A DNA stretch of 21,185 bases from IMG/VR virus record IMGVR_UViG_3300000125_000003, positions 1 through 21,185 of that record. One strand, given 5' to 3'. The translations under genes and the position numbers were made by a program. The DNA is from a virus. Below are positions 3,731 to 18,230 of the stretch, piece by piece. The number at the start of each line of letters is the position of its first letter. The stretch's first letter is position 1. The notes beneath the pieces were generated by a model. It had not been told where the DNA came from. It saw only the letters and a program-made list of their open reading frames with translations, and searched no databases.

Positions 3731-5545
3731 TTAGTTTTTGAATTTCATTTTGTTCCAATATTCAGCGGTATAACCTTTATACTTCATATCCTTTGGTGCT
3801 ACTGGTACTTTTTGAGCGTTCTTTGGTGCTTTAAAACCTTTGCTTTTTGCTTGACCGCTTGTTATTTGGCTTTTTTCACCGTTTTTAATTTGGTAGGTTT
3901 TTCTGAACCATTTATGATTACATCTTGCACCGCCTTTATATAGCCATATAGAATAAGTATCAGAACCACCTTTACCAAACCCAGCGTTTACAGATTTTTT
4001 ACCCATTGATACAATGTCCTCTTTACGGTAAACCTTTTTTGCACCTATCATTTTAGAACAAAACTGTCGGCTATTTGACCCAGCTTTTTCTGGTGCATAG
4101 CTATAACGTACTAAAAACTCAACGCCTTTTTGACTATCTTGTTTTGACTTACCGTCTTGTGTACTTTTTGCGTTTGGTTTTGCAGTTCCAGTACTTACAA
4201 AATTCCATATTTTAGATAATGTAGTTTCTTCTTTTTCTGGTTCGGCGTTTAAGTCTGTTATAACTTCATCAAGTTCATCGTTTAACTCATAATCAACTTC
4301 GCTCTCATCTACTAAATCATATCCTTCTAGTAGTTCTTCTTCACTCTCCCCTAAGTCGATTAATTCATCAGCTATTTTGCTACCTACATCATTCGGTAAT
4401 TCTTGACTAAGTTTAACCCCAGTTTCTTCTTCCCTTGTTTCTGCATCCTCAACGTTTTCTAAGTCTGTAAATTCTAACGGTTGAAGCGTTTTAAAGTACA
4501 ATTTAAGGCTCATTTGGTTGTAAGCTAGTATAGAATCAAAAGCGTCTATTAAAAGCATCTGAAATGGTCTTATAACGGTGTTATCCATTAATGTACTAGC
4601 TGTTTTTAATTCGTCTGCATTATTACCTAGTCCACTTGAGTCCTTAATGCCTAAAAGCATAGGACTAACAACCCTATGTCCTACCATTATTTTTTTAGTA
4701 CATTCATCACTCACATATTGGTAAGTATTATGTGCTTCACTTATTTGCAACGTTTCAACAGTTGCTGCACTTTCTGAATTATCATTAAAAGCTAAAATGA
4801 ATTTAGAACCAGATGTACCAGTAAATTTTTCTGTTATACGGTTTTCTAATGCTTGACGTTCTTCTGCGTTTGGCGTTCCGTTATTAAACTGTATTAAAGT
4901 ATTCGGACTAAAAGAATTAACAGTGTTGTTTAGGTGGTATATAGACACTTGTTGCTCTGTTTCACACCAATTTAAAATCCCTTGATAATCTGGACTTGAA
5001 TAATATTTATATCCAGCTCTGTAGGGTTTAACATATATAATTTCTATATTTTCTTTACTACTTCCAAAAGCTGGTATCCTAGTAGTTTGACCTACATTCT
5101 TAACCTTAGACCAATCGTCTGCGTAAAAATATCCTTCAATTTCTCCTTTGTCGTTACATTTTTCGGCTCTTAAATTTTCAACTGGAATATGTTCAACTTG
5201 TGCAATAGTTTTTTTATCTTTTGAATAAATCACCTGCATAGCACATTGCCCCATAAGTTTAAGGTCATAACACAATTTGCGAACCATATCTTTATGAAAC
5301 AAAGAAATCATTTTAGCGTATTGTTCAGGCTTTTTATTTGAATTTAAAGCATCAAGTCCACGTCCGTAAATCATTTCGCTAATACCGTTTATAATAGCGT
5401 TATTTGTTGGGCTACCATTATATCGGTCAATTAAGTACTTAAAATAATTGTTATCAGAGCCATAAGAAACCCACTCTTTATTGGACTTCTCAACAATATC
5501 TGGTGTTGTGTAGGTACTTAAATTTACTATTCTTAAATCGTTCAT
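3731..5545 (-). CDS. Portal protein with C-terminal Cys/His domain
   Basis: 604 residues, longer than the usual 400-500 for portals. Residues 1 to about 360 are portal-like: YNGSPTNNAIINGISEMIYGRG near the start, a middle with EHIPVENLRAEK and IIYVKPYR, then NAEERQALENRITEKFTG and VVSPMLLGIKDSSGLGNNADELKTA, as in portals of the SPP1/PBSX type. A highly acidic linker (about 370-440) follows. Residues 477-556 form a separate domain containing QFCSKM, YRKEDI and YKGGARCNHKW, with C496, C542 and H544; I have seen this pattern in other phage structural proteins but know no function for it. The tail end is Lys-rich. The portal forms the dodecameric DNA gate of the capsid. It lies far from the terminase here, which is unusual. 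Confidence 0.8.
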   Translation of the reverse strand: MNDLRIVNLSTYTTPDIVEKSNKEWVSYGSDNNYFKYLIDRYNGSPTNNAIINGISEMIYGRGLDALNSNKKPEQYAKMISLFHKDMVRKLCYDLKLMGQCAMQVIYSKDKKTIAQVEHIPVENLRAEKCNDKGEIEGYFYADDWSKVKNVGQTTRIPAFGSSKENIEIIYVKPYRAGYKYYSSPDYQGILNWCETEQQVSIYHLNNTVNSFSPNTLIQFNNGTPNAEERQALENRITEKFTGTSGSKFILAFNDNSESAATVETLQISEAHNTYQYVSDECTKKIMVGHRVVSPMLLGIKDSSGLGNNADELKTASTLMDNTVIRPFQMLLIDAFDSILAYNQMSLKLYFKTLQPLEFTDLENVEDAETREEETGVKLSQELPNDVGSKIADELIDLGESEEELLEGYDLVDESEVDYELNDELDEVITDLNAEPEKEETTLSKIWNFVSTGTAKPNAKSTQDGKSKQDSQKGVEFLVRYSYAPEKAGSNSRQFCSKMIGAKKVYRKEDIVSMGKKSVNAGFGKGGSDTYSIWLYKGGARCNHKWFRKTYQIKNGEKSQITSGQAKSKGFKAPKNAQKVPVAPKDMKYKGYTAEYWNKMKFKN

Positions 5546-5547
5546 AT

Positions 5548-5898
5548 TTATATTATTATAAATTCGTTATCCGAACTTTCTTCACTTATATATTGGTCTT
5601 TATTTACGCTGTAATATTCATCATTACTTTGGTTAATTGCTTGGTCTGTGCAAAAAATCTTATCTTTATAAATTATATTATTTGAATAAAGAACATCTAA
5701 AATATAAAAATCGCTTTCAGTTAAAGCACCGAAAACAGCATCAAAAGAAATATAATTACCATCAATTACCGATGTAGCATCAACCGTAATAGAAACATTT
5801 GTACTTTCGCTAGTCAATTTTAGGTTCAAAGTACCCACCGTAAATTCTCTTGGAATTATCTTAAAGGTTTTATTACCGCTTGTGTTTATCAACTTCAT
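5548..5898 (-). CDS. 116-residue protein between tail tube and portal genes, function unknown
   Basis: The product is beta-rich, starting MKLINTSGNKTFKIIPREFT and ending YYSVNKDQYISEESSDNEFIII. The C-terminal pattern, Tyr-Ser-Val-Asn-x-x-x-Tyr followed by Asp-Asn-(E/D)-(F/Y)-Ile-Ile-Ile, is one I associate with small structural-region proteins of Bacteroidetes phages, none with a proven role. It begins after the terminator behind the tail tube gene and ends 2 bases before the portal start. The leader directly before its ATG, TTTATATATTAAT, is identical to the one before the tail chaperone gene. A minor virion or assembly role is a guess from position. Confidence 0.6.
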   Translation of the reverse strand: MKLINTSGNKTFKIIPREFTVGTLNLKLTSESTNVSITVDATSVIDGNYISFDAVFGALTESDFYILDVLYSNNIIYKDKIFCTDQAINQSNDEYYSVNKDQYISEESSDNEFIII

Positions 5899-5911
5899 AT
5901 TAATATATAAA
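5899..5911 (-). promoter_or_regulatory. A/T-rich start-codon leader, identical to that at 16987-16999
   Basis: TTTATATATTAAT stands directly before the ATG of the 116-residue gene. The identical 13 bases stand before the chaperone gene. Variants precede the protease, scaffold-like and portal genes. It probably serves as an unstructured translation start region, as Bacteroidetes rely little on Shine-Dalgarno pairing. Confidence 0.45.
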
Positions 5912-5943
5912 TAAAAAACAAATATTTTGTATTGTGTAGATAT

Positions 5944-5972
5944 AAAAAAAGGGCTATCCGTTAAGATAACCC
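5944..5972 (-). terminator. Intrinsic terminator after the tail tube gene
   Basis: On the minus strand GGGTTATC (5972-5965) pairs with GATAGCCC (5958-5951) in an 8-bp stem with one G-U pair, a 6-base loop and seven T (5950-5944). It lies 23 bases past the tail tube stop. Confidence 0.85.
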
Positions 5973-5995
5973 AGTTTTATAAGTAAAAGTACTAA

Positions 5996-6523
5996 TTAAG
6001 CCGTTGGGTCAATTTGCACTGGTGAAGTTTCTGTTAAGATTTCTTCAGAGTCAATAAAGTAAGGCGGTGCAGTTTCTTGTGCATTCAGCGTTAAAGTGTA
6101 TCCTGTTAAATCTCCCATTGCTGCACCTGTAACGATTGTACCACCGTTTACCTCAGCACCATTTTCAAGACCTACAAAAAAGAAGTTCCCGTTGTAATCT
6201 TCAACAGCTACGTGTGGTCGTGCGTGAGCGATTAATTTAAGTTGTTCTTGTGTAGCTACATCTTGAAAGGTTAAAGTCATATTTAGTGTAGTATCGTAAA
6301 AAGTTGTTCCGTTTTCTCGGCTTGAAGTGATAGCGGTTTCCATTGAACTGTTACCTTTTACATCAAACTGATAAAATACAGCGTTACCACTTAGGTTTGT
6401 TATTTCACCTGCTACGATTGTTGCATCTCCTAAAGTACCGTAATCTGCAAAGTAAATGGTCTTAATTCCACCTACTGCCGATTTACAAGGCACTTTACGT
6501 CCGCTAGTTATTAAGCATCCCAT
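5996..6523 (-). CDS. Major tail tube protein (probable)
   Basis: 175 residues, beginning MGCLITSGRKVPCKSAVGGIK. It has the make-up of a siphovirus tube subunit: mostly beta strands, an N-terminal strand leading to YFADYG, a middle with TTLNMTLTFQDVATQEQLKLI, and a C-terminal GYTLTLNAQETAPPYFID, where the alternating strand before the Ala-Gln-Glu turn is typical of tube proteins. Placement directly behind the major capsid gene, with a terminator on each side, fits a product needed in high amounts. No sheath gene accompanies it, which supports a non-contractile tail. A second capsid-associated protein is a less likely alternative. Confidence 0.7.
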   Translation of the reverse strand: MGCLITSGRKVPCKSAVGGIKTIYFADYGTLGDATIVAGEITNLSGNAVFYQFDVKGNSSMETAITSSRENGTTFYDTTLNMTLTFQDVATQEQLKLIAHARPHVAVEDYNGNFFFVGLENGAEVNGGTIVTGAAMGDLTGYTLTLNAQETAPPYFIDSEEILTETSPVQIDPTA

Positions 6524-6543
6524 ATTTTTAAAGTTTTTTAAAT

Positions 6544-6568
6544 AAAAAAGGGTAGGCAGAACCCACCC
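6544..6568 (-). terminator. Intrinsic terminator after the major capsid gene
   Basis: On the minus strand GGGTGGG (6568-6562) pairs with CCTACCC (6556-6550), with one G-U pair and a 5-base loop, followed by six T (6549-6544). The stem can be extended by A-T pairs around a single bulged G. It lies 24 bases past the capsid stop and 20 bases before the next start, so there is almost no room for a new promoter between it and the tail tube gene. Confidence 0.85.
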
Positions 6569-6591
6569 CTTTAAATTTGATTAGTTAATTA

Positions 6592-7527
6592 TTATACTGT
6601 TTTTCTGAAAACAATATCAGTTACTTGCGCATAAGCCACGCCACTAGTGAATCTCATTACTACACGAATATTTTGTGAGCCATCATTTTCAGCCATATCA
6701 ATCACTCGAACTTCGTTCAAGTCATTTAATAGACCTGTTCCAAAGAATAAGTTTCCTTTTTCAGCAGCGATAATTGTTCCTGAAGCAGCACCTCTTGCAG
6801 CTACTACTGGAATTCCATCAAAGAATAAAGAACCTAAAGATTGGTTGTTTCCTTTGTTTTCGTATCCGTTTGCACCTTGTCCACCAGATTGGAATCCGCC
6901 TAAAGCACGTGTGTAAGCACGAATTACATCAGAAGCAGCATAGATATATAAATCATCAGAAAGATAAACAGCCGTAGGAATAGCATCTGTTACAGCAGCT
7001 AATTCATCTAAAACATTTGCCGATGTAATAGCAGCACCTGTTAAATCTTGTCCTGCTGGTAAATCTCCGTCAGCATCTAATAAAGTTCCGAAACCGTTAA
7101 ACTGTCCGCTAGTTCCTGTATCTCCTGACCAGATATTCTTTTCTGTTCTATCAGCTACTTTAGAAGCAACGTGTCCGATTACGAAATCAGCAAAACTTGG
7201 TGCTAAATTATCAAAAGCACTAAAGCCCATTTGCTCAGCTTCCCAAGAGTCGTGAAGGTCTTTTTTACAAATATCAAGGTTTACTTGAAATTCTTCTGGT
7301 TGTAGGATAGCTTCTGTTAAAGTTAAAGTTCCTGCATCTGTTTGGAAGTCACAAGAAGCATCTTTTACGATGTCATCAGTTGCAGCCTTTTGAATTACAG
7401 ATTTAAATTTTACATTTGGCATTACGGTAATTAACCCTTTATCCAAAGTGTCAGCAGATAGTAAAGCAGCAGCAATGTATTTGCCACTAAATTCACCTGC
7501 ATAAGTTGTTGTTAATGATACACTCAT
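6592..7527 (-). CDS. Major capsid protein (probable HK97 fold)
   Basis: 311 residues. Features consistent with Bacteroidetes phage capsid proteins: an N-terminal arm with YAGEFSGKYIAAALLSADTL, then VMPNVKFKSVIQKA, a segment with LDICKKDLHDSWEAEQMG, a helix-rich middle (DFVIGHVASKVADRTEKNIW) and a C-terminal strand GSQNIRVVMRFTSGVAYAQ. There is no large N-terminal delta region, consistent with a separate scaffold gene upstream. Its neighbours are protease, scaffold-like protein and tail tube, and it has its own terminator. The capsid assignment is firm by context; the HK97 fold is known for such families and is not shown here directly. Confidence 0.8.
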   Translation of the reverse strand: MSVSLTTTYAGEFSGKYIAAALLSADTLDKGLITVMPNVKFKSVIQKAATDDIVKDASCDFQTDAGTLTLTEAILQPEEFQVNLDICKKDLHDSWEAEQMGFSAFDNLAPSFADFVIGHVASKVADRTEKNIWSGDTGTSGQFNGFGTLLDADGDLPAGQDLTGAAITSANVLDELAAVTDAIPTAVYLSDDLYIYAASDVIRAYTRALGGFQSGGQGANGYENKGNNQSLGSLFFDGIPVVAARGAASGTIIAAEKGNLFFGTGLLNDLNEVRVIDMAENDGSQNIRVVMRFTSGVAYAQVTDIVFRKTV

Positions 7528-7549
7528 TTTATTTAGTTTTTAGTTGTTA

Positions 7550-8170
7550 TTAATTATTTAATCTTGCCATTACTCTATCAATAGTAGTGCTTTTTCTGTT
7601 TTTAGAAACACTAAATTTAGAGATAGATTTATTTCCTTCTGGATTTGATACGATTGGCTCAGCACTTGGCTCGTTTAATTCAGCTTGTACTTCAACAGGT
7701 ACTTCGTTTAGTTCCACTCTTTCGTGCTTAGCTAATTCTTCTGTTAAAAGGTTGCCTAAGTCTTCGCTCAAATCTTCTTTTGGTTCTAGCATTGCTTTGA
7801 TTTCTTCAATCATATCTTTAACCTCTGCTAGCTCTTCTTTAGTAGCATATCCCATTTCTTCTTCTTCAGCCGCTTCAACCTCAACTTCTTCTGCTTCAGT
7901 TTCTTCAACTTCTTCTTCAGCTTCAGCATCTTTGATTTCAGCAATAACGCCATCTTCGGCTACTACTAATATTTTACCGTCTTCAAGATTATAGCTCCCA
8001 ATAGGTAATGCCACTTTCTCATCCTCTGTAACGATAAACACTTCCACGCCACTTTCAAACGAATCAGCCTCAATGACCGTTCCGTTGTCTAGTTTAGCTT
8101 GTTCTAACTTAACTTCTTCGTTAAGGTTTAGAACGTCTTTGATTTTTTCAATCACGTTGTTTGATTTCAT
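7550..8170 (-). CDS. Acidic scaffold-like capsid assembly protein
   Basis: 206 residues immediately upstream of the capsid gene (22-base gap). The first about 75 residues contain VKLEQAKLDNGTVIEADSF and GSYNLEDGKILVVAEDGVI, a beta-rich module I know from Bacteroidetes phage genes before the capsid gene. Residues about 80-105 are almost entirely Glu, Ala and Val. A coiled-coil-prone helix follows (EELAEVKDMIEEIKAM), and the C-terminus is basic and Ser-rich (FSVSKNRKSTT). An acidic middle with a basic C-terminal tail that could bind capsid subunits is typical of scaffolds. It would be a natural substrate for the protease encoded two genes earlier. The role is inferred. Confidence 0.6.
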   Translation of the reverse strand: MKSNNVIEKIKDVLNLNEEVKLEQAKLDNGTVIEADSFESGVEVFIVTEDEKVALPIGSYNLEDGKILVVAEDGVIAEIKDAEAEEEVEETEAEEVEVEAAEEEEMGYATKEELAEVKDMIEEIKAMLEPKEDLSEDLGNLLTEELAKHERVELNEVPVEVQAELNEPSAEPIVSNPEGNKSISKFSVSKNRKSTTIDRVMARLNN

Positions 8171-8193
8171 ATTTATATATAATTTAGATTTAT

Positions 8194-8733
8194 TTAATTT
8201 GCATTTTGAACTAGTTTCCTTAATGATTGCAAAGTTTTAAGATAACTATTTGTAGGTATTTTAACACCTAATTCTTTAGCCATTTTTTCAGCGTTATCAA
8301 TAAATTTATCTAGTAAAGCAATGTTTTTCCTAGCTTCTTTTATTTTAGGCTCGTTCTTTTTTTTATTTTTTTCAACAACTTTTTTCAAATCTTGAAAGCT
8401 TCTAGATGCTCCTTCTTCTAATTTATCTGCTTTATCGCTTTCTTGTTTTGCACTTTTGTATTTATCTTCTATATCAAAAAATTTCTTTCTTAATTTGCTA
8501 GCATTATCGATAGCCTTTTTAAAATCTTTAAACCGACTTGGTAACAATTTTTCTTGTCTAGCAACTAAATCAGTTCCATCTTTAAGTTCCTTAATTAAGG
8601 TTTTAGATAAGCCATCTACCTTGTTTAAATCATCAATAATACCTAACTCTACTTTTTGTTTCGTCAACTCTGTTTTATTTAGTTGTTTAATAGGAGTTGA
8701 TAAGTGTTTGTAAACTTTTTTTAAATTGTTCAT
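8194..8733 (-). CDS. Lysine-rich coiled-coil protein in the capsid module, function unknown
   Basis: 179 residues, nearly all predicted helix by eye: long Lys/Glu/Leu-rich stretches (RFKDFKKAIDNASKLRKKFF, DKYKSAKQESDKADKLEE, FQDLKKVVEKNKKKNEPKIK). No enzyme motif, signal peptide or membrane segment is seen. It sits between the cysteine protein and the acidic scaffold-like protein. A second scaffold, a minor capsid component or an assembly chaperone would fit. The opposite charge to the acidic protein that follows could mean the two interact, which is only a suggestion. Confidence 0.55.
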   Translation of the reverse strand: MNNLKKVYKHLSTPIKQLNKTELTKQKVELGIIDDLNKVDGLSKTLIKELKDGTDLVARQEKLLPSRFKDFKKAIDNASKLRKKFFDIEDKYKSAKQESDKADKLEEGASRSFQDLKKVVEKNKKKNEPKIKEARKNIALLDKFIDNAEKMAKELGVKIPTNSYLKTLQSLRKLVQNAN

Positions 8734-8747
8734 TTTATATTTATTTA

Positions 8748-8912
8748 TTAATTTGAATTCTCGTTTTTAGAAATAGAACCAATACCCTGTGCTATTATAT
8801 CACCGTTACAGCATTCAATAGAATAAGCATCCCTATCCCTACATAAACAACCTCTGCGACCGTTTCTAGGGCTTGTTTTACTTGGCGTAAACATTTTCGC
8901 CCACCTACCCAT
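8748..8912 (-). CDS. 54-residue cysteine-rich small protein (CLC...CC), function unknown
   Basis: ATG at 8912, TAA at 8748. The start overlaps the end of the protease gene by 8 bases, and an alternative start at Met7 (8894) leaves a small gap. The product contains FTPSKTSPRNGRRGCLCRDR and later YSIECCNGDIIAQGIGSI, with four cysteines (C22, C24, C34, C35) and no others. The block Arg-Gly-Cys-Leu-Cys ... Tyr-Ser ... Cys-Cys-x-Gly ... Gln-Gly-Ile-Gly is one I recognise from small genes beside the prohead protease in Bacteroidetes phages, without a known role. The CxC/CC spacing could bind a metal ion or form disulfides. Confidence 0.7.
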   Translation of the reverse strand: MGRWAKMFTPSKTSPRNGRRGCLCRDRDAYSIECCNGDIIAQGIGSISKNENSN

Positions 8913-9510
8913 TGTTTTCGCTTTCTTTTATGATGTTTATTATTTCTTGTACCATTAAATCCTCTTTAGATAACTCATCGTTAATTGGCTCTTTAGGACG
9001 TTCCATTTTGTCAGCGAAATAGCCTTCTATACTAAACCCTTTTACTTTACCAGTCTTTACAAACTCATTCCAAATTTGGTCGTTGTTTACTTTAACAGAA
9101 CCAACCCAAGAACCTAAAGGTAAATCCATTCCGTACTTAACGCTTTTATCGTGTACCTTATCCTCTACTATCCAACTTTCAACTAAACTTAAACCCTCAA
9201 TAGCGTGTTGGTGTTCTAGTGTTGAGTTGTTTTGTTTACTATTCATTAAATACATCTGGGATGCTTTTAAGACAGTATCTTTTGAAAAATATATATAGTA
9301 CTCATCTTCGCCATTACGTCTGTATATTGGCTTGTTAGGTATTAATAAAGCACCCATTAATATTCTACGTTCACCATCTATTTCTGCTAGTTTAAACTCT
9401 TGGCTTTTTAAGGCTACAAAATCTTCTTCAATAGCAGGAGATTCCACAACGCTTATAGCTTCAATTCCTAGTTCGCTTTCCTCGTCTAATATTAATTCGA
9501 CTATTCTCAT
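8905..9510 (-). CDS. XkdF-like prohead serine protease (Peptidase_S78_2 type)
   Basis: 201 residues. The N-terminus EAISVVESPAIEEDFVAL is the usual opening of XkdF-like proteins. It is followed by GERRILMGALLIPNKPIYR, EYYIYFSKDTV, then LEHQHAIEG with H100 and H102, SWIVEDK, PLGSWVGSVKVNNDQIWN and GFSIEGYF with S160. The pairing of a His in the middle with a Ser in GFSxxG is the catalytic layout of the phage S78 proteases. The enzyme would cut scaffold and capsid arms during prohead maturation. It opens the capsid module, 35 bases after the tape measure stop, behind the leader TTATATATTATT. Confidence 0.8.
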   Translation of the reverse strand: MRIVELILDEESELGIEAISVVESPAIEEDFVALKSQEFKLAEIDGERRILMGALLIPNKPIYRRNGEDEYYIYFSKDTVLKASQMYLMNSKQNNSTLEHQHAIEGLSLVESWIVEDKVHDKSVKYGMDLPLGSWVGSVKVNNDQIWNEFVKTGKVKGFSIEGYFADKMERPKEPINDELSKEDLMVQEIINIIKESENNG

Positions 9511-9545
9511 AATAATATATAATTAAATTTATTTATTTTTGTTTT

Positions 9546-11405
9546 TTATATTGTTGCACCTTCTACAATATTATTTTGTAAACTTTGCGCAGTTGTTACA
9601 TCGTTTGAAACTACATAGGCTTGAACAGGTTCGTTTGTTTGACTAGCTACCGCATCACCTAAAGCACTTGTTTCGCTTGAGCCTACAATGTTAAAACTTG
9701 GAGGTGTTGGTGCAGAAGGCGTTCCACCAGTTGAAACACCACCTGATGAACCTTTTTGTTTTGGTATTTTTGTTTTTGCAATCGTTATAACATTAGCTAA
9801 ACCAGATGCTATAATTCCAGCCGCTGCAACTGGACCTGCTATTCCACCTTGTGCTAAAGCTTTATTAGCTCCAAGATATGTATCAATTACCGCTTGTGCA
9901 ATTCCTATTCCTTTCTGTGCTTCTGCATTTTCACCTGCTAAAGCACTAAGACCATTTAAAGCACCGCTAACAGCTTCTAGGTTTGATATCTTAGCATCTT
10001 TAGTTTTTTGGTCTAAATCCTTTTTAGCCGTTTCTAGTTCAGTATCCCTACTTAAATTAGTTTGTCTAGATTGTTCTGTAAAATCATCTAAAGCAATTTG
10101 AGCATCTATCTTTGCTTGGGTTTCTGCATTTGCATTATCAACAATAGCTTGAAGCCTAATGGTTTCTTGTTCAGCTTCTAGTAAATCAATTTCTTTTAAT
10201 GCTTCTAAACGTGCTAATTCGTCATCTATTTGCTCCGCATTAAATCGTTTACGTTCTATTGATAAATTACTTTCGCTTTCTAGCTTTGAGTTTGTGAGCT
10301 CTATTTGTTCTCTGTCAAGTGCTAAATCGTTTGCTTTTTGTTCTGAACGTAAGCCTTCAACTTGAGCTAAAATCCCTTCTTTGTTTGCTAAGGCATCTAT
10401 TAAAGCAACTTGAGCTTCTATAGTATTGTTTTTATTTACTTCGTTTTGTGCTGCCGCTACTTGCATATCAGCTTGTTTTAACATTGCTTTTTCTTGCTCT
10501 GCTAAAACCTCTAAAAGTTTATCATTAGCTTCTTTACGCTCAGCTACTGTATTACGTTCTTCATCCCTAACTTGCCTTAGTTGTTCAGCTTGTCTATCAT
10601 ATTGTTCAACTAATCTTAATTGTTGGGCGGCTGCAAGTTCAGCACTATTTTTTAATTCAATGTTTGTTTTAGCTGTTTCTAAAGCGGCTTTTACACTTAT
10701 CTTACCTAGTTCTTCACCAGCTATTTTACCAATATTAGCAACCTCACCAATAGCATCTCCTATATTTGCAGCTATATTTTTACCAGCATCTAAAGCATCA
10801 ACAGCAACCTCTTTAATGTTTTCAGTAGTTTCTTTTATTTCTGCATTTAATCGCGTTATTGTTTCTGGGTCTTTATCTCCAAAGAATGAATTCTCCCAAG
10901 CTAATTGAGCTGTTTGTAAAGCTAATTTTATAGCATAAAAACCTAGTTTTAATGGAGTTATACCTATTTTAATAACACTCCCTAAAACCTCGCCTAGATC
11001 GTTAAAGTTTTCAGAGCTTTTAGCAATAGACTCATAAACATTTATAACCGCCGTTACAACTTGATTTGCTACAATAGAAAACGTTTCAAACGCTGTTGAG
11101 AATACATCTACAACTTTTTGGTTTTGGCTAAACACATCTTTTAATCCAGAAAGAGCGGATATAATTAAACCAATCCCAGCGGCTTTCATAGCAAGTCCTA
11201 AACCTTTAAACCCTTTACTTATAAGTCCAACTCCTTTCTGAGTTTTCTTTGAGCTTTTAGTTATATCTTCAAGACCTTTCTCTGTAGTGTCTGAAAATTT
11301 AGAAAATGATTTATTAAGTTCTTGTATCGCATCTGCTAACTTTCCAAAGTCAGCCTGAGCACCACCACTATCAACATTTAATTCAATTGTTTTTTCTATT
11401 GCCAT
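9546..11405 (-). CDS. Tail tape measure protein
   Basis: 619 residues. The N-terminus IELNVDSGGAQADFGKLADAIQELNKSF is typical of tape measures. A first hydrophobic stretch (GLAMKAAGIGLIISALSGL, about 70-90) is followed by a very long helical region of Ala, Glu, Gln and Lys (about 220-480) that looks like coiled coil. A second hydrophobic stretch (GIAGPVAAAGIIASGLANV) lies near residue 550, and the C-terminus is low-complexity Ser/Thr/Pro. With the usual rule of about 1.5 angstrom of tail per residue, the tail would be near 90 nm, which is an estimate. The start at 11405 overlaps the preceding 46-codon gene by 10 bases. No lysozyme or peptidase insert is visible. Confidence 0.85.
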   Translation of the reverse strand: MAIEKTIELNVDSGGAQADFGKLADAIQELNKSFSKFSDTTEKGLEDITKSSKKTQKGVGLISKGFKGLGLAMKAAGIGLIISALSGLKDVFSQNQKVVDVFSTAFETFSIVANQVVTAVINVYESIAKSSENFNDLGEVLGSVIKIGITPLKLGFYAIKLALQTAQLAWENSFFGDKDPETITRLNAEIKETTENIKEVAVDALDAGKNIAANIGDAIGEVANIGKIAGEELGKISVKAALETAKTNIELKNSAELAAAQQLRLVEQYDRQAEQLRQVRDEERNTVAERKEANDKLLEVLAEQEKAMLKQADMQVAAAQNEVNKNNTIEAQVALIDALANKEGILAQVEGLRSEQKANDLALDREQIELTNSKLESESNLSIERKRFNAEQIDDELARLEALKEIDLLEAEQETIRLQAIVDNANAETQAKIDAQIALDDFTEQSRQTNLSRDTELETAKKDLDQKTKDAKISNLEAVSGALNGLSALAGENAEAQKGIGIAQAVIDTYLGANKALAQGGIAGPVAAAGIIASGLANVITIAKTKIPKQKGSSGGVSTGGTPSAPTPPSFNIVGSSETSALGDAVASQTNEPVQAYVVSNDVTTAQSLQNNIVEGATI

Positions 11406-11536
11406 CGTATCTCTTGTTTTAACGTTTTGTAACCCTCTTTTAAAGTGGTTGGTAATTTATATTTGCCTTGTGCTATTCGCAAGTTTTCGGTTTCTCCGTT
11501 AGCGTACTTTAAACTTTCTATTATTAATTTAATCAT
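11396..11536 (-). CDS. 46-residue protein before the tape measure gene, function unknown
   Basis: I choose the ATG at 11536, one base after the stop of the large tail protein, over the longer form, which would overlap that gene by 56 bases. The product is MIKLIIESLKYANGETENLR and on, helical, ending KTLKQEIRWQ. It overlaps the tape measure start by 10 bases. These exact joints support a real coupled gene. Nothing in it points to a function. Tail-assembly proteins often sit just before the tape measure, but the better chaperone candidate in this window lies elsewhere, at 16342-16986. Confidence 0.6.
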   Translation of the reverse strand: MIKLIIESLKYANGETENLRIAQGKYKLPTTLKEGYKTLKQEIRWQ

Positions 11537-11537
11537 A

Positions 11538-14150
11538 TTATAAGGTTGTTTCAAATAAATCAGTGTCAAACGCCGCAAACTCATCTCCATCAATATCGTA
11601 AATTGGTCTTAAAGATATTTTATAAGTTGTGTCAGGGTCTAAATTTAACCGTTCCTTACCAGTAGGCTCGGTAGATAAAACAGAAGTATCATAAACATCA
11701 TCTATATATATATCATATTTAATAAGGTTAGAATCGGTTATAGCATCCCAATCAAAAGCTATCTTAGAAGATGTTTTGCTTGTTGTTTCTAAATTCTGAA
11801 CTCTGTTTAAATCTGGTCTTTGTCCGTTTATGCTTTGCGATGTATTCACTTGTAAATTGTACAATTCTAAATCTGTTTTATTTGTCAATAGATTTGTCTT
11901 TACTGAGTTTATTCTGTACTCGGTATTATTTATAATAAAAACATCATTTAGTCTATAATTTAAAATTACATTTAAAGGTAAATAAGCAGTAACATTTAAT
12001 TTTCTAGAATCCCTTGCAAAAATATTAGCCACATAATTTCTGTAATATTTAGTAAATAAATCATTAGATGATTCTTGTGTTCCAGTGTTTAAAGTGTATT
12101 CATCAGTTTCAACACCAAAATTTAAAGTATCATTAATGACCCCTGTTGATATATTTGGCAACGAGTTAGAAGGTCTTAGATAGGGATTAATAACTGTTGT
12201 ATCTTCATTGGGTTCTTCAAATAAAATTTGGTCTGAAACACCACCACTAGTTTGAGTGCTTAAACAATAAAGCAATAAAGGTTCACCGATTGTTGGTTCA
12301 AATTTTTTATCTAACATCGCACCTTGTACAACTTTTGTTAAGTCACCGGTTTCTTCATCAGTTAATCTTTCGTACATCATTTTTTCAAAACCAACTTCAA
12401 CATTATAATTCCCTCCATCCCATTTATCATTTCCGTAGCTTTCTTCTGAAAATTTATTACCTTGCTGTTCTTCTGAAAATTGTACTAAATATGATTTTTT
12501 GCTTTTAAATTTAAATAACATATTTTTAAACTGCAATAATTTAGATACTTTTGATTTTTCTGTATCTACGTACTCAGTAATATCATAGTAATTTCCTTCA
12601 TTGTAATAATCATCTAAAGGTAAAATATTAATTATCCCATCCTCTTTATATGCGGTTAAGTTAAACATCGTAAAAATGTTTTTAAGAAAATCAAATATTT
12701 TAATTTTAGGCATTTGCCTGCTTATTGTAACTACGTTTTCAGATGCAGGAGCTAACTTTTCATAAACACCTTGGTCAACAGAAAACCAAGAACTTAATCC
12801 AACCCTGTAATTTTCAGTCACAACCAAATCTTGTGACATTCCTAAAGTGTTGGCTGTTATTATATTTACCTGCACATTAATATTTTCCTCACCCCAAGTG
12901 TCTGGTGAAAACTGATGAGAAAAAGTTTGAGTTCCTGTCCCACTGAAATTCGCTATTTCTGAATTATTAGAATTTCTTAATATTTGCACATCATAAGTCC
13001 TATTTGGGTCAGGTGAATTAACTGTTAATTCAAATAAATATCCGTGAGTTATCCTCCATTGTCCCGTTTGCTCGAAAAATGGAGCTGCAGGTCTTAAATC
13101 TGTTCCAGAAACAAAGTCGTAATAATTATAATTACCAGTCCAAATACTTGGTTGAAATGAAAATCTAGTACTTATTGTTTGAACTGCACCACCTTCATCA
13201 GAATTAGACAAAAAACCTTCTTCTCTATGAAGCCACATATAAAGCTTTTTAAATGTAGAACTATTAAAAAACTGAGGGCTAAATTTTATTTCTGGATAAG
13301 TGTTTTCTATCGCATCAATTATAACTTTACATTTTAATGCTGGTTTTAAATCAGAATAATTTATATACGTATTACTTATAACATCCTTGTAACCTTCTTG
13401 ACCATCATAGCCGTATCGCATATTTTTACTGTGCGTTATAAGTGGAAATACTAAATCATCACCTTCAGAACCTCCTCTTAATTTGCTTTTTACAAAATCG
13501 CTTTCATATACAAAATTTAAAGTATCTGGGTAATCTAAAGTACTAAGTTCATTCTCAGCTAGTAAATCTTTAAACTCAACAGATTCACCTGTAAAAACTA
13601 ATTTATAAGAATAAGCTACATTGTTTTTTAATTCAACAGATGTTAAGCTGAACTTTCCTATTTTGTAATTTAATCCGTTTAGCTGTATTAAAGCATCACC
13701 TTTATATCTAGCATCGTAACTGTTTTCAATCTTACCATTATAATAATGTTTAAAAACTTTATTGTTATTCTTTGAAGCAGGTACGCTAAATTGTTGACTA
13801 AAAGGTGCAAATATTTTAGATGGGTCTTTTACGTTTTGAATACTATCTGTAATAGAAACGCTTTCATCTTTAAACAAATCTAACTTTGTAAATTCGTTAT
13901 ATATTTGATATGGTTGATTGTTACCAGAAAACGACCCGCCATCAATATCTAAAGCATTAACATTCCCACTAGGTGCGATTGCAGTAATAGTACCTAAAAT
14001 ACCAGTTGTAAGGTTTTCAATTATTTGACCCACTTTAAAGTCACCACTTGTGAAGTCTGTTGATGTATCAACTAGCCTTGTTTGAGTTGGAAAATCTCCA
14101 TTAGAACTATACTTATTCCCATCCCTTATATATAAGTCAATTATCTGCAT
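11538..14150 (-). CDS. Large tail-tip / baseplate hub-like protein with C-terminal fibronectin III-like domain
   Basis: 870 residues, abutting the gene before it with no gap. The N-terminal region contains LDLFKDESVSITDSIQNV, FAPFSQQFSVPASKNNNKVF and YYNGKIENSYDARYKGDALI, a pattern I know from tail proteins of Bacteroidetes phages and which may be the equivalent of the Tal/gpJ hub. The middle is beta-rich. The last about 90 residues (VQNLETTSKTSSKIAFDWDA, YDIYIDD, LDPDTTYKISLRPIYD) look like a fibronectin type III domain, common in tail-tip proteins that touch the cell surface. It shares the tail module with the smaller tail protein upstream and the tape measure downstream. Confidence 0.7.
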   Translation of the reverse strand: MQIIDLYIRDGNKYSSNGDFPTQTRLVDTSTDFTSGDFKVGQIIENLTTGILGTITAIAPSGNVNALDIDGGSFSGNNQPYQIYNEFTKLDLFKDESVSITDSIQNVKDPSKIFAPFSQQFSVPASKNNNKVFKHYYNGKIENSYDARYKGDALIQLNGLNYKIGKFSLTSVELKNNVAYSYKLVFTGESVEFKDLLAENELSTLDYPDTLNFVYESDFVKSKLRGGSEGDDLVFPLITHSKNMRYGYDGQEGYKDVISNTYINYSDLKPALKCKVIIDAIENTYPEIKFSPQFFNSSTFKKLYMWLHREEGFLSNSDEGGAVQTISTRFSFQPSIWTGNYNYYDFVSGTDLRPAAPFFEQTGQWRITHGYLFELTVNSPDPNRTYDVQILRNSNNSEIANFSGTGTQTFSHQFSPDTWGEENINVQVNIITANTLGMSQDLVVTENYRVGLSSWFSVDQGVYEKLAPASENVVTISRQMPKIKIFDFLKNIFTMFNLTAYKEDGIINILPLDDYYNEGNYYDITEYVDTEKSKVSKLLQFKNMLFKFKSKKSYLVQFSEEQQGNKFSEESYGNDKWDGGNYNVEVGFEKMMYERLTDEETGDLTKVVQGAMLDKKFEPTIGEPLLLYCLSTQTSGGVSDQILFEEPNEDTTVINPYLRPSNSLPNISTGVINDTLNFGVETDEYTLNTGTQESSNDLFTKYYRNYVANIFARDSRKLNVTAYLPLNVILNYRLNDVFIINNTEYRINSVKTNLLTNKTDLELYNLQVNTSQSINGQRPDLNRVQNLETTSKTSSKIAFDWDAITDSNLIKYDIYIDDVYDTSVLSTEPTGKERLNLDPDTTYKISLRPIYDIDGDEFAAFDTDLFETTL

Positions 14151-15263
14151 CTATCTAATGTTATTTATCGTGTCAAAAGCAAAGTCTATTTTTATAGTGT
14201 AGTTTATTAGCTTATCATTTAAACTTGTTTTGTAGCTAAAACTAGAATCCGTTATATTGACAGGTATAATTTGGTTGTCTATTTCAATCCAAGCATCCTC
14301 GCTAAGCTGCATTTCCTTAAATACTTCATTATAATCTTCTGGATAGTAACCAGTATTCAAGTCCATTTTTTCAGTACCCATTTTATATAGGTTCTTTTGT
14401 TGGTGTTGGTTTATTGCATAACTATTTGCTGTAAGTGTATTTCTTTTGAAACCCTCTTTTTTAGTGGATAGTTGTTTATTGCTACGTTTGAAAAACCACA
14501 CATCTTGCAATGCACCGAACTTATTTATAAAACTTATTTTGTAAGGCTGATATTTGCATTCCTCAATGTTTTCAACTTTTATAAGGTCAACACTCCCATC
14601 TATTGAATTAACATATATGGTGTCAACAGGAAATAACGTTGTACTATCTAAGAATGAATCTAAACAAAGGTTGCCCTCGAAAGTACCGCCATCATTTAAA
14701 ACCCTATCTTCAAACTCATCTGATGGACTTACTGAGTTTGTTATGTATTGTATTTGAAACAAATTTGAAACTGACCCAATAATGTTTTGTTTATATATTT
14801 CCTGTCCGTTATGATAAAAAGAAACGCTTGAAGTTTTACTATTATCAATAGGCAAATAAACGGCTGCATCATCTAACTTAACGATTTTTAAATTAGACTG
14901 TAATAAACTAGAATCATTTTGTGGATTTATTCCCTCTTGGAAATACCCATAACCATAAAAGCCTTTATTTTGAACTGTTGTTAAAACAGACTCAACTCCT
15001 GCAACTATTTTTGTGATTTGATAATCAACCCAAACAACAGGTGTCGAAACAGTAGAAGGATTGTAATCCATATAATCCCTAACAAGTTCTGATATCTCAA
15101 AATTAATTGTTGAGTTTACAGCAGTAGAATTTAAAATGTAAGTTGGTGTAGTTGGTGCTGCTCCTTGATTTCCGCTATATATCCACAGTTTTAAAGTAGC
15201 ACTTGTTAAATCGCTTTCATTTAAATATACATAGTAAGGGCTTCTTGTGTTAATTTTTGCCAT
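14151..15263 (-). CDS. Tail-tip structural protein (distal tail-like), putative
   Basis: 370 residues, beta-rich, beginning MAKINTRSPYYVYLNESDLT. A distinctive central block reads IKVENIEECKYQPYKISFIN followed by KFGALQDVWFFKRSNKQLS, a pattern shared by tail proteins that precede the hub in Bacteroidetes phages. The N-terminal domain has INFEISELVRDYMDY. It lies directly before the 870-residue protein, where a distal tail protein or baseplate ring component is expected. I have no motif that separates these options, so the call is by order and family resemblance. The start is one base after the gp10-like stop. Confidence 0.55.
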   Translation of the reverse strand: MAKINTRSPYYVYLNESDLTSATLKLWIYSGNQGAAPTTPTYILNSTAVNSTINFEISELVRDYMDYNPSTVSTPVVWVDYQITKIVAGVESVLTTVQNKGFYGYGYFQEGINPQNDSSLLQSNLKIVKLDDAAVYLPIDNSKTSSVSFYHNGQEIYKQNIIGSVSNLFQIQYITNSVSPSDEFEDRVLNDGGTFEGNLCLDSFLDSTTLFPVDTIYVNSIDGSVDLIKVENIEECKYQPYKISFINKFGALQDVWFFKRSNKQLSTKKEGFKRNTLTANSYAINQHQQKNLYKMGTEKMDLNTGYYPEDYNEVFKEMQLSEDAWIEIDNQIIPVNITDSSFSYKTSLNDKLINYTIKIDFAFDTINNIR

Positions 15264-15264
15264 T

Positions 15265-15795
15265 TTATCGTTCTGTTAATTTTATTAAATCTTTTTCTAA
15301 ACCTAAAGAGTACGCTTCAATTAGTTCATCTGGAAGTCTTTTAAACGCAGCTACAAACGGCTTAGTAAAAAATAAACTTGGCTTGATACCTTTTTGGTAT
15401 ATGCTTCTTGATATTAAAAACGCTGTGCTTTTATAACTTAAATATCTGCCAGACTTCCTATCTCTAAATTGTATTCCTTTTCGTTTAACCCACTTATTAA
15501 TACTATTCGTTAATCCTCCCTTTTTGCCCGTGCCACTTCCAAACCTAAACGGACTGTTCGGTGCTTTTGCACTTGATGATTTACCTCTAACTCCTTTATC
15601 TTGAAACTGACCGTATTGTTCCATACTAAAGCCTAGTTCAGCACCTTTAGGTGTTAGCTCTACATTATAACCTAAACTATTATAAAGTCCCTTAGTGTCG
15701 TTCTTACTGCTTTTAGATAAGTTGCTACGGCTTTGCTGTATAACGTACTTAGCGAACTTGTTTAATTCTTCTTGTAGGGATTTATCTGCTAACAT
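15265..15795 (-). CDS. HK97 gp10-like head-tail joining protein
   Basis: 176 residues, basic. Features matching the gp10 family: an N-terminal helix (LQEELNKFAKYVIQQSRSNL), the central YGQFQDKGVRGKS corresponding to the family's Tyr...Phe...Gly-(T/V) loop, and the C-terminal KPSLFFTKPFVAAFKRLPDE, like the Pro-Phe-(L/F) helix that ends gp10 proteins. A longer basic insert (WVKRKGIQFRDRKSGRYLSY) is present. The gene overlaps the preceding one by 7 bases. The usual partner of this family is a tail terminator, which fits the upstream gene. Confidence 0.65.
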   Translation of the reverse strand: MLADKSLQEELNKFAKYVIQQSRSNLSKSSKNDTKGLYNSLGYNVELTPKGAELGFSMEQYGQFQDKGVRGKSSSAKAPNSPFRFGSGTGKKGGLTNSINKWVKRKGIQFRDRKSGRYLSYKSTAFLISRSIYQKGIKPSLFFTKPFVAAFKRLPDELIEAYSLGLEKDLIKLTER

Positions 15796-16259
15796 ATTGT
15801 AATGTCGTTATTCACTAATATATCAAACGTTGCTGTCCATCCAGCTACCTTGTTTTCAAACCTATCTACAAACGGTTCTAAACTTGCGTCACCATCTAAT
15901 TGATATTTGTCGCTGTATAAATCTCCACGCCTTAAAACTTGTACTAACTTATTTAATACCGCTAGTTGTGTATTTAAAACGTCCTGTTCATTATTGTTTC
16001 CTATAAATATATCCGTTGTTGGTTCTTTACTTTCATCTACAATATCCATTGCTAAAATAGAAATGTTAAATCTAAGAACGCTTTCTTGTGCTGTAACTGT
16101 ATTAATAATCAAATGTGATAAAGGGAATATAGACTGCTTAGACAAATCAATATCAAATAAATCACCCTCTGTAACGGTGTTTACATTTATATCACCTAGT
16201 AAAGCATCTTTGATAGCTTGTGTTAATAAATAATAACCTCTTATTCCTGTTTGGCTCAT
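15789..16259 (-). CDS. Probable tail terminator / tail completion protein
   Basis: 156 residues. It begins with MSQTGIRGYYLLTQAIKDAL, has a helix QDVLNTQLAVLNKLVQVLRR, and ends FENKVAGWTATFDILVNNDI, a C-terminal strand pattern seen in the small terminator proteins of Bacteroidetes phages (Ala-Gly-Trp ... Asn-(D/T)-x-x-(I/V)-Cys). Its size and place, before the gp10-like gene, match. The ATG overlaps the stop of the chaperone frameshift extension in an ATGA joint, so its translation may depend on ribosomes that shifted frame. Function is inferred from context and resemblance. Confidence 0.5.
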   Translation of the reverse strand: MSQTGIRGYYLLTQAIKDALLGDINVNTVTEGDLFDIDLSKQSIFPLSHLIINTVTAQESVLRFNISILAMDIVDESKEPTTDIFIGNNNEQDVLNTQLAVLNKLVQVLRRGDLYSDKYQLDGDASLEPFVDRFENKVAGWTATFDILVNNDITIC

Positions 16260-16534
16260 TTGAATTTGTTTTTAATATTCCTTGCTTCTATTTCGTTTTT
16301 TTCTTTTGTATATGTTAAATACGTTAAGCACTCGTGTACGTTTAGTTTAGTGATATCTTCAAACTTTGTAATATCTCCGTTAGCGATTGCATATATTGAA
16401 TTGTACCATTTCCATCTGGCTGTGAAGCCAGATATTTCACTAAATTCTCCTCGTTCTGTTTGCTGGAAGAGTTCAGAATAACTGTCGATAAGTCCTTCCC
16501 TAAATCGTAAAAAAAAACCATAGCACCAAAACAC
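16256..16534 (-). CDS. -1 frame extension of the tail assembly chaperone (gpGT-like C-terminus)
   Basis: This frame overlaps the chaperone gene in the -1 phase and is open from 16552 to 16256. It contains no ATG; the only upstream candidate is a GTG at 16534. Slipping at the T9 run joins chaperone residue 159 to codons from 16510, giving a fusion of about 243 residues with the join VFF-LRFREG. The unique end reads GFTARWKWYNSIYAIANGDI followed by TKFEDITKLNVHECLTYL, a well-formed protein segment I know from the second chaperone frame of Bacteroidetes phages. The stop overlaps the next ATG (ATGA). By analogy to lambda G/GT the fusion would recruit tail tube subunits to the tape measure. Confidence 0.75.
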   Translation of the reverse strand: MFWCYGFFLRFREGLIDSYSELFQQTERGEFSEISGFTARWKWYNSIYAIANGDITKFEDITKLNVHECLTYLTYTKEKNEIEARNIKNKFK

Positions 16535-16986
16535 GCATCTAAAGGATAGTTCTTAGCTTCTTCATTTACATCTGGGTCATATTCTTTTAATGTATATCTT
16601 TGCCCTTGCTTTAAATCAATAGGTCTATATAAAACATTCATAGCTCTATGTAGATTATCGTTATCGCCTATAAAGGTATCTAAGTCCACGTACTCCCCAA
16701 AGCTCATATTTTCTAAGTCTGGTATAAATCCGTAATCTTTACCGTTTAATTGAAATCTATTTAACATCTGATGTTCTACATCAAACATAGTATTTATGAC
16801 GGTACAAATATCCGTTATATCTTTTGCTTTCATTGAACGTACAACCTCAACAGGTACTTTGCAGAATATCTCAATCATCTTAGACTGCACCTCTGACTCC
16901 TTTGTAATATCTAGTTTTGAAAACTCCTGATACTGTCCTAGAGTGATTTCATTTAACGTTGTTGGTATAACTAACTTTACTTCCAT
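16342..16986 (-). CDS. Tail assembly chaperone, short form (gpG-like)
   Basis: 214 residues. The opening PTTLNEITLGQYQEFSKLD and the central YGFIPDLENMSFGEYVDLDT are characteristic of a Bacteroidetes phage tail protein family placed as the chaperone. Frame 0 remains open for 55 codons beyond the T9 run and ends NGTIQYMQSLTEILQSLKIS, which also looks like genuine protein, so the last part of the gene is read in two frames. The leader TTTATATATTAAT sits directly before the ATG. In most siphoviruses this gene lies between tail tube and tape measure; here it follows the terminase. Confidence 0.75.
   Translation of the reverse strand: MEVKLVIPTTLNEITLGQYQEFSKLDITKESEVQSKMIEIFCKVPVEVVRSMKAKDITDICTVINTMFDVEHQMLNRFQLNGKDYGFIPDLENMSFGEYVDLDTFIGDNDNLHRAMNVLYRPIDLKQGQRYTLKEYDPDVNEEAKNYPLDACFGAMVFFYDLGKDLSTVILNSSSKQNEENLVKYLASQPDGNGTIQYMQSLTEILQSLKISLN
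16508..16518 (-). promoter_or_regulatory. Probable -1 ribosomal frameshift site, T-TTT-TTT within a T9 run
   Basis: On the minus strand frame 0 reads GTT TTT TTT TAC. The last T of GTT with the next two codons makes the canonical slippery heptamer T-TTT-TTT in the right phase. The nine T occupy 16517-16509. About 10 bases downstream GGAAG (16499-16495) can pair with CTTCC (16469-16465), with a small CAG/CTG hairpin inside; this stem is weak and may not be needed. Confidence 0.75.
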
Positions 16987-16999
16987 ATTAATATATAAA
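16987..16999 (-). promoter_or_regulatory. A/T-rich start-codon leader before the tail chaperone gene
   Basis: TTTATATATTAAT abuts the ATG at 16986 and is the same 13-mer as at 5899-5911. It lies in the 35-base gap after the large terminase gene. No Shine-Dalgarno-like GGAG is present. Confidence 0.45.
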
Positions 17000-17021
17000 C
17001 TTTTTTAATTTATTTTAGTAA

Positions 17022-18230
17022 CTAAGACACTGTATATTTACCCCTGTTTGGGTTTTGTAATTGAAAGCCTACTGCATAACGGACTGCATCGAGTAAGTGA
17101 TTCCAATTATCTATTGGCGTATTAGATTTACGTTCTAGCCATCTGTAATTATTTAGTTCTTTAATTAAGTTAGTACTATCTGGACTTACTATAATATCAT
17201 AGTCTTGCAGTAAACTTATTCCGTATGTGATACTCCCTTGACCTTTTATACTAGGGCGTACATTACAACCTTTAGCTTTTATTTCGCTTAGTAGTCTAGG
17301 TTCTGCACTATCCCCAACGATTAAACCCTCTCTAGCGTGTTTTAAATTAAGCTGTGCTATTTGTGACGTTGTTAGTCTTTGTAAGTAGAAACATTCCTTT
17401 AAATAAATACGTTTGTTAGAACTATCGATATTAACTTCAACTAATGTACTAGGGTCTGCTGCGAAACCATAATCTTGACCCCATACACTTGTGCCTATAT
17501 GCTTAAACTCTCCTACACTCCAATTATTAAATATAACCCCCTCTGCTTTGTTTAACCACGAGCCTAACATTTGTTGTTTGTATTTATCTGGGCGTCTTAT
17601 CTTCATTTGCTCTATTTGGTCTATATAGCTTTTAGATAAGTTCTTTATATTATCCTTATAAGTAGTGTGTATATATGTAGTGTTTTCTTTAGTTGTATTG
17701 CTGCCCTCTTGCACCCCTCTATCCTCAAAGAAACGTCTATATATAAAATGTTCTTTTGTCGTTGGGTTAAGTATTAATATAATTCTATTTGGTTTGCCTT
17801 GCTGTCTTACTGACAAATCAATAGTATCGAATTTTTGTTCATCAACTAGTTCCTCTGCTTCATCTACCACCCACGTTGTAATGCCTTGTAAAGATTTAAG
17901 GTTTGCAGTCTGGTCACCGCTTGAGGTTTTAATACCTCTGAATATTATTTTACTTCCAGTCTTTTTGTTTAGTATCTCATCTTTGGTTATGTGAAAATCT
18001 GCTATTGAGCCGAACTGTTCTAGCTTGTCAATAAATTCTGGAATGATTGATATGTAAGCTGAGGTTAGCGTATAACGTGTAAACAGTATCGTATGACCTT
18101 GTTCGTATGTTAGCATCACTAAAAGGGCGTTTACTGAAAAAGACTTCCCAGAACCACGCCCACCACTCACTATAAAATACCTACTGTCGCTATCAACAAT
18201 AGGCATATATTTTTTCTTTACTTTAATCAA
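17022..18230 (-). CDS. terL: Terminase large subunit
   Basis: 402 residues, PBSX/Terminase_3-like. The N-terminal ATPase has Walker A GGRGSGKS (23-30), Walker B WVVDEAEE with D123 and catalytic E124, and the coupling motif LILNPTT (about 152-158). The C-terminal RNase H-like nuclease has the three expected acidic residues: D253 in GQDYG, D307 in VGDSAEP and D381 in HLLDAVRYAVG. It powers DNA packaging and makes the cuts. The start overlaps the small subunit by 8 bases. Length is normal and no key residue is missing. Confidence 0.95.
   Translation of the reverse strand: MIKVKKKYMPIVDSDSRYFIVSGGRGSGKSFSVNALLVMLTYEQGHTILFTRYTLTSAYISIIPEFIDKLEQFGSIADFHITKDEILNKKTGSKIIFRGIKTSSGDQTANLKSLQGITTWVVDEAEELVDEQKFDTIDLSVRQQGKPNRIILILNPTTKEHFIYRRFFEDRGVQEGSNTTKENTTYIHTTYKDNIKNLSKSYIDQIEQMKIRRPDKYKQQMLGSWLNKAEGVIFNNWSVGEFKHIGTSVWGQDYGFAADPSTLVEVNIDSSNKRIYLKECFYLQRLTTSQIAQLNLKHAREGLIVGDSAEPRLLSEIKAKGCNVRPSIKGQGSITYGISLLQDYDIIVSPDSTNLIKELNNYRWLERKSNTPIDNWNHLLDAVRYAVGFQLQNPNRGKYTVS

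Follow-up and report, generated by a model that had tools for sequence, protein, structure and literature searches.

A phage gene with two overlapping frames under selection: candidate tail-chaperone-like recoding at a conserved T run never shorter than nine

The window analysed here is a virus record of 21,185 bp. On its minus strand lies a gene with two overlapping frames that part at nine consecutive T. Its features are as follows.

16342–16986, minus strand: frame-0 ORF with an ATG start, encoding the short, G-like product of 214 amino acids (159 shared amino acids and its own 55-amino-acid tail)
16509–16517, minus strand (A9 on the plus strand): slip site, an uninterrupted T9 read in frame as GTT TTT TTT TAC
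16256–16510, minus strand: −1 frame past the slip site, stop included, encoding a T-like domain of 84 amino acids (LRFREGL...KNKFK)
16342–16508, minus strand: dual-coded overlap of ~167 nt in frames 0 and −1, with the wobble positions of both frames equally substituted
16259–16341, minus strand: stretch past the frame-0 stop that codes in the −1 frame only; third positions of that frame account for 279 of its 372 substitutions

The original prediction, made from the DNA letters of this record, had placed GTT TTT TTT TAC in frame 0 within a run of nine T, and exactly nine T lie at 16509–16517; the four triplets are codons 157–160 of the frame-0 ORF, and the run is the longest homopolymer of the whole window. 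A −1 switch at the T9 would give a long product of 243 amino acids, in which the 159 shared residues are followed by the 84 residues of the −1 frame and the 55 frame-0 residues are replaced; the predicted products of 214 and 243 residues, with 55 exchanged for 84, were thus read correctly from the sequence. The −1 frame had also been described as open from 16552, lacking ATG and ending in an ATGA joint with the next gene. All coordinates hold in the window: the frame runs from 16552 to a stop at 16256–16258, and this stop forms an ATGA with the start codon (16259) of the gene that follows. Reading of the sequence past the slip site found zero ATG, GTG or TTG codons in this frame, and the sole listed start-like codon upstream in it is a GTG at 16534. 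That one gene would yield two products, with about 55 codons of the window gene read in both frames, is well supported at the level of sequence.

The genes that locate this ORF within the structural region are listed below.

17022–18230, minus strand: terminase large subunit, the adjacent gene upstream, read in the same direction (PF04466, E = 3e-31)
15789–16259, minus strand: next gene, 156 amino acids (PHROG 30964, unknown function), with its ATG overlapping the −1 stop
9546–11405, minus strand: tape-measure-like protein, downstream, separated from the recoded gene by four genes (PHROG 9483, E = 8e-7)

The minus-strand order is terminase large subunit, recoded gene, proteins of 156, 176, 370 and 870 amino acids and tape-measure-like protein, followed by a head-maturation-protease-like protein, other head genes and the portal. 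This order of modules (3731–18230, minus strand), with terminase, recoded gene, tail genes and tape measure ahead of protease, head genes and portal, is unusual. A further ORF of 575 amino acids (3–1727, minus strand), which runs past the window end, contains repeated AIG/SAIG-type motifs resembling YadA-like trimeric adhesin heads and is probably a tail fibre. The isolates closest to the frame-0 protein were the Nonlabens phages P12024L and P12024S (~28% identity), and two relatives were located in Winogradskyella and Bacteroidetes MAG contigs; on these grounds, this marine virus probably infects Bacteroidota. Searching with the T domain gave no match among isolate phages, and in the genome collection these two MAG contigs only.

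Conservation was examined in 543 related loci, representing 404 distinct sequences with identity down to 25–30% and including the isolate Nonlabens phage P12024L. The slip site carries T9 in 345 of the distinct sequences, T10 in 58 and T12 in one, so that at least nine T are present in 404/404, and T7 or T8 was found at this site in none of the 404. An in-frame T TTT TTT heptamer is likewise present in every one. Of an initial 80 viral contigs, 78 extend across the site, and each of these has GTT TTT TTT TAC, or a sequence one base different from it, together with the open −1 frame; site and frame were likewise kept in 80 more distant contigs and 63 relatives of P12024L. The query pattern used for the first distant set contained FFY, and the search was therefore repeated with N-terminal-only queries ending before the slip zone; the T run was again present in every contig reaching the site. 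Across relatives, the run starts in codon phase 0, 1 or 2, and conservation of the −1 frame begins right at it (L.FR motif).

Both stops are visible in 389 relatives, and in 388 of them the −1 frame ends later than frame 0. The exception, contig L160 (1746–2490), carries a T10 that unites the two frames in one ORF of 247 codons, through either sequencing error or a real fusion; fused frames in relatives had been named in the original prediction as an arrangement that would speak against it, and this contig was the only case. Likewise, no ATG-started second gene was consistent among relatives: an ATG occurs somewhere in the −1 frame past the run in about half of all relatives, at no constant position, and in 1/78 of the close ones. 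The ATGA joint is frequent without being universal and was for that reason rejected as part of the signal. In one locus (L268, 1501–2100), the slip zone has been lost by internal deletion, and the shared part is joined to the short-form tail in the remaining frame 0. An error of sequencing or assembly was considered as a source of the two frames, as was phase variation of the T run at the DNA level, given that T runs are error-prone and that L160 joins the frames at T10. The same T run recurs, however, in hundreds of independent metagenome contigs as well as an isolate genome, and because conservation is so broad, this reading is already refuted and was assigned next to no probability.

For analysis of selection, 106 non-redundant relatives were placed on a tree, and substitutions were counted by parsimony at each codon position. 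Upstream of the slip site, substitutions at frame-0 positions 1, 2 and 3 numbered 379, 247 and 1550, respectively. In the part read in the −1 frame only, after the frame-0 stop, the corresponding counts were 33, 279 and 60, with position 3 of the −1 frame dominating, and in the overlap they were 100, 237 and 281. Changes synonymous in frame 0 and nonsynonymous in −1, relative to expectation, stood at 2.72 upstream, 0.23 in the −1-only part and 1.30 in the overlap; for changes synonymous in −1 and nonsynonymous in frame 0, the values were 0.32, 3.00 and 1.42. Changes per site amounted to 3.96 in the overlap versus 7.33 upstream. As both synonymous classes are similarly enriched in the overlap, the substitution pattern indicates that it is held about equally by both frames, with purifying selection on each. 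Alignment of both frames in relatives had been proposed as a check; its outcome agrees with the predictions that both C-termini are real and that about 170 bases are dual-coded, the overlap of ~167 nt being selected in both frames. Retention of the run in 404/404 relatives, together with evolution of the −1-only stretch as −1-frame coding sequence, indicates that the T run and the −1 frame are beyond chance.

These data also bear on whether the long product alone matters, with the frame-0 tail after the T run being a by-product of unconstrained reading. The tail does vary in length, from 55 codons in most relatives to about 15 to 86 after the run in distant ones, and is short in P12024L. Against this, the overlap ratios are unlike those of either single-coded zone, the frame-0 stop falls at the same codon in 106/106 close relatives, and a tail motif (GDG...SL.E.L..L.IS.N) recurs in distant relatives. 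By these sequence comparisons, the long-product-only reading is refuted for close relatives, and overall we consider it very unlikely.

The isolate phage P12024L carries CTT TTT TTT TAT at the slip site and a homologous −1 frame, with 28–31% identity to the window gene. Its gp40 and gp41 (L081, 6001–6695; NC_018272.1, 23946–24640), which are annotated as two hypothetical proteins, are two frames of one recoded gene. The pair in P12024L and P12024S (PHROG 32199 and PHROG 38404) is a true homologue of the window gene, with an identical T9 in the same register (the T9 being read in P12024L) and a homologous −1 frame, and differs in a shorter frame-0 tail and in that no recoding is annotated. PHROG 38404 is probably the ATG-started end of the −1 frame only. 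The P12024L annotation, in which the −1 frame begins at an internal ATG overlapping the frame-0 stop, would fit the −1 ORF being a gene in its own right, started internally. Yet 28 codons of the −1 frame, which is conserved from the T run onward, precede that ATG, and in the window the −1 frame has no ATG, GTG or TTG past the slip site from which such a gene could begin; a separate gene was accordingly judged highly improbable. In Flavobacterium phage 6H (L228, 10000–10927, spanning gp10 and the stretch below it), gp10 gave a fold match to the window protein, and it is followed by a long unannotated open frame in another frame (...LYGFYLYFASFQKYLTSATIFIQGSE...) with no T9; phage 6H may recode there too, without a T9.

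The gene had been predicted to encode a tail assembly chaperone. Architecture, operon position and weak PHROG and fold matches agree with this assignment, but no chaperone profile or solved fold was matched. The frame-0 protein belongs with PHROG 32199 (unknown function, E = 8e-21) and matches PHROG 166, "tail protein," at E = 1e-4, and Pfam and NCBIfam searches with the G-like and T-like parts returned no chaperone profile, PDB searches with both parts being equally unproductive. The predicted model of the G-like part (pLDDT 78) had no match in the PDB at E ≤ 0.001 by Foldseek, and in BFVD it matched unannotated viral proteins and, very weakly (E = 0.12, probability 0.75), one annotated tail assembly chaperone; the predicted T-domain model was of poor quality. 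The gene adjoins the terminase gene and lies upstream of the tape measure gene in the same direction, with four genes between rather than directly before it. In lambda, the tape measure protein is bound by G, whereas recruitment of the major tail (tail tube) protein falls to the T domain (PMC5009743). The window gene would share with lambda G/GT a short product and a rarer −1-extended product with a common N-terminus, encoded in a structural operon (PMC5009743). It differs in its slip site of T9 or longer, with the X XXY YYZ heptamer in frame but 55 codons before the stop, in the ~55 codons that are dual-coded and selected in both frames, and in adjoining the terminase. The distance from slip site to stop is ~167 nt here, as against a site near the 3′ end of G in lambda; in the SEA-PHAGES chaperone set, it averages 26 nt (PMC10885494).

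Taken with the weak PHROG 166 and very weak fold matches, architecture and operon position point to a tail assembly chaperone, the short form of which would be abundant and the long form rarer and bearing the 84-amino-acid helical domain, as in lambda G/GT. No sequence or fold match links the window protein to known tail chaperones, and while it would work like G/GT by design, grouping by descent goes beyond what the sequence supports. Recoding into two products in a G/GT-like role, whatever the nature of the slip step, is considered highly likely.

Recoding of tail chaperones is a textbook case of ribosomal frameshifting. A purely ribosomal programmed −1 frameshift, with P- and A-site tRNA-Phe re-pairing one base back on U UUU UUU as in lambda, was weighed against slippage of RNA polymerase on the T run. 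In the latter, one U would be added in a fraction of mRNAs (U10), which would put the −1 frame in register, and ordinary translation would then yield the long product. The prediction had named a canonical T-TTT-TTT slip signal. The in-frame heptamer, found in 404/404, stands and favors the ribosomal reading, but its role as the signal is doubtful, since what relatives keep looks longer: an unbroken stretch of nine T or more, placed in different registers. T7 or T8 would satisfy the heptamer yet never occur, and the edges of the run shift in compensation such that at least nine T are held. In nine sequences from two separate clades, the T following the FF codons is lost to CTG, and 9/9 have TTT in front with the run still at nine, compared with TTT in front in 16/395 sequences elsewhere; in three sequences with AGT, in which the leading T is lost, TTT lies behind and the run reaches T10. 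Only two to four independent events underlie these edge compensations. In the sequences whose following −1 codon encodes Leu, heptamer position Z, the last base of the second Phe codon, is T in 364/364, although C at this position (TTT to TTC, with TTA to CTA or TTG to CTG) would be synonymous in both frames; its absence also counts against a ribosomal signal.

Further evidence came from other runs in the same phages. In-frame T7/T8 heptamers number 37 in other ORFs of the same contigs, terminase included, which argues against the ribosomal reading, even if tolerance of T7 heptamers is still compatible with low-level slippage. Among perfect in-frame T7 heptamers without sign of recoding are those in L004 (396–1581) and L073 (4207–5326), and RFFE in the terminase, read as CGT TTT TTT GAA, is an example of a tolerated T-TTT-TTT heptamer. 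In fetched related loci, A9 is depleted in coding sequence relative to A7 and A8 (A9, 16 coding versus 65 noncoding; A7, 283 versus 343), a pattern that slippery runs of nine would produce in these hosts, and T9 outside the slip site occurs in two sequence families only, in 0.93 Mb. In many bacteria, A/T runs that are prone to slippage are visibly selected against once they reach a length of nine (Baranov et al., PMC1088944). An immediate +1-frame stop after the run was dropped as evidence for polymerase slippage, as it follows from protein motifs in the other frames.

With respect to stimulators, no conserved RNA structure was detected up- or downstream of the slip site (RNAalifold, 34 diverse sequences, z > 0), and single-sequence z values were near 0; a stem-loop present in the window is not common to relatives. 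A Shine–Dalgarno-like motif upstream of the slip site was found in 9/106 relatives only. The lack of such elements speaks against a ribosomal slip, as does the report that in E. coli U_UUU_UUU prompts far less shifting than A_AAA_AAG does (PMC5009743), although a low ratio requires no strong stimulator (about 30:1 in lambda, PMC5009743). The tail chaperone cases in the literature searched are, moreover, all ribosomal (PMC5009743; PMC3711429, 6–7% frameshifting measured). A nine-T run also follows from a heptamer with hydrophobic flanks, V/I/L/F being NTT in frame 0 and L/F being TTN in frame −1. Flanking T are thereby explicable under the ribosomal reading, and because hydrophobic residues in both frames force T around the heptamer, run length alone is not decisive.

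Polymerase slippage is favored by the lack of T7/T8, the compensated edges, the heptamers tolerated elsewhere, the absence of a Shine–Dalgarno motif or RNA fold and the published threshold of nine. It is as well supported as ribosomal frameshifting or slightly better, and the conservation pattern agrees with a run-length threshold of nine at least as well as with a ribosomal shift. From the sequence evidence, we put addition of one U by RNA polymerase as the slip step at about an even chance and a purely ribosomal shift at somewhat below even; both could contribute.

Shigella mxiE and spa13, Thermus dnaX and IS transposases likewise have two overlapping ORFs with a conserved T or A run, nine or more long, in the overlap. 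The second ORF of mxiE is, as would be the case here, reached by one inserted nucleotide, with one extra U at a U run joining the two ORFs (PMC1088944, PMC5009743). Those are cellular, plasmid or IS genes in which slippage has been shown experimentally, whereas in the present phage gene it is inferred. The HK97-like tail assembly chaperone cluster of GeneTack also has a frame transition, with the measured frameshifting mentioned above, but is a different protein family (PMC3711429).

Recoding of the G/GT type is already known; what is new is the family, the signal of T9 or longer and how long the frames overlap. In the open-licence literature searched, transcriptional slippage was not found reported as the source of any tail chaperone. 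There is perhaps one chance in two that, in a large family of phages of aquatic Bacteroidota, a tail-chaperone-like long form arises via programmed transcriptional slippage at T9 or longer, rather than by ribosomal frameshifting, with at least 55 codons read in both frames. Simultaneous selection on two reading frames is seen in this gene with unusual clarity, its fusion was missed by gene callers even in the isolate phage P12024L, and its assignment would give a function to unannotated PHROGs. With 404 distinct sequences in several registers, the family constitutes a large natural mutational series, which makes the question of ribosome or RNA polymerase directly testable.
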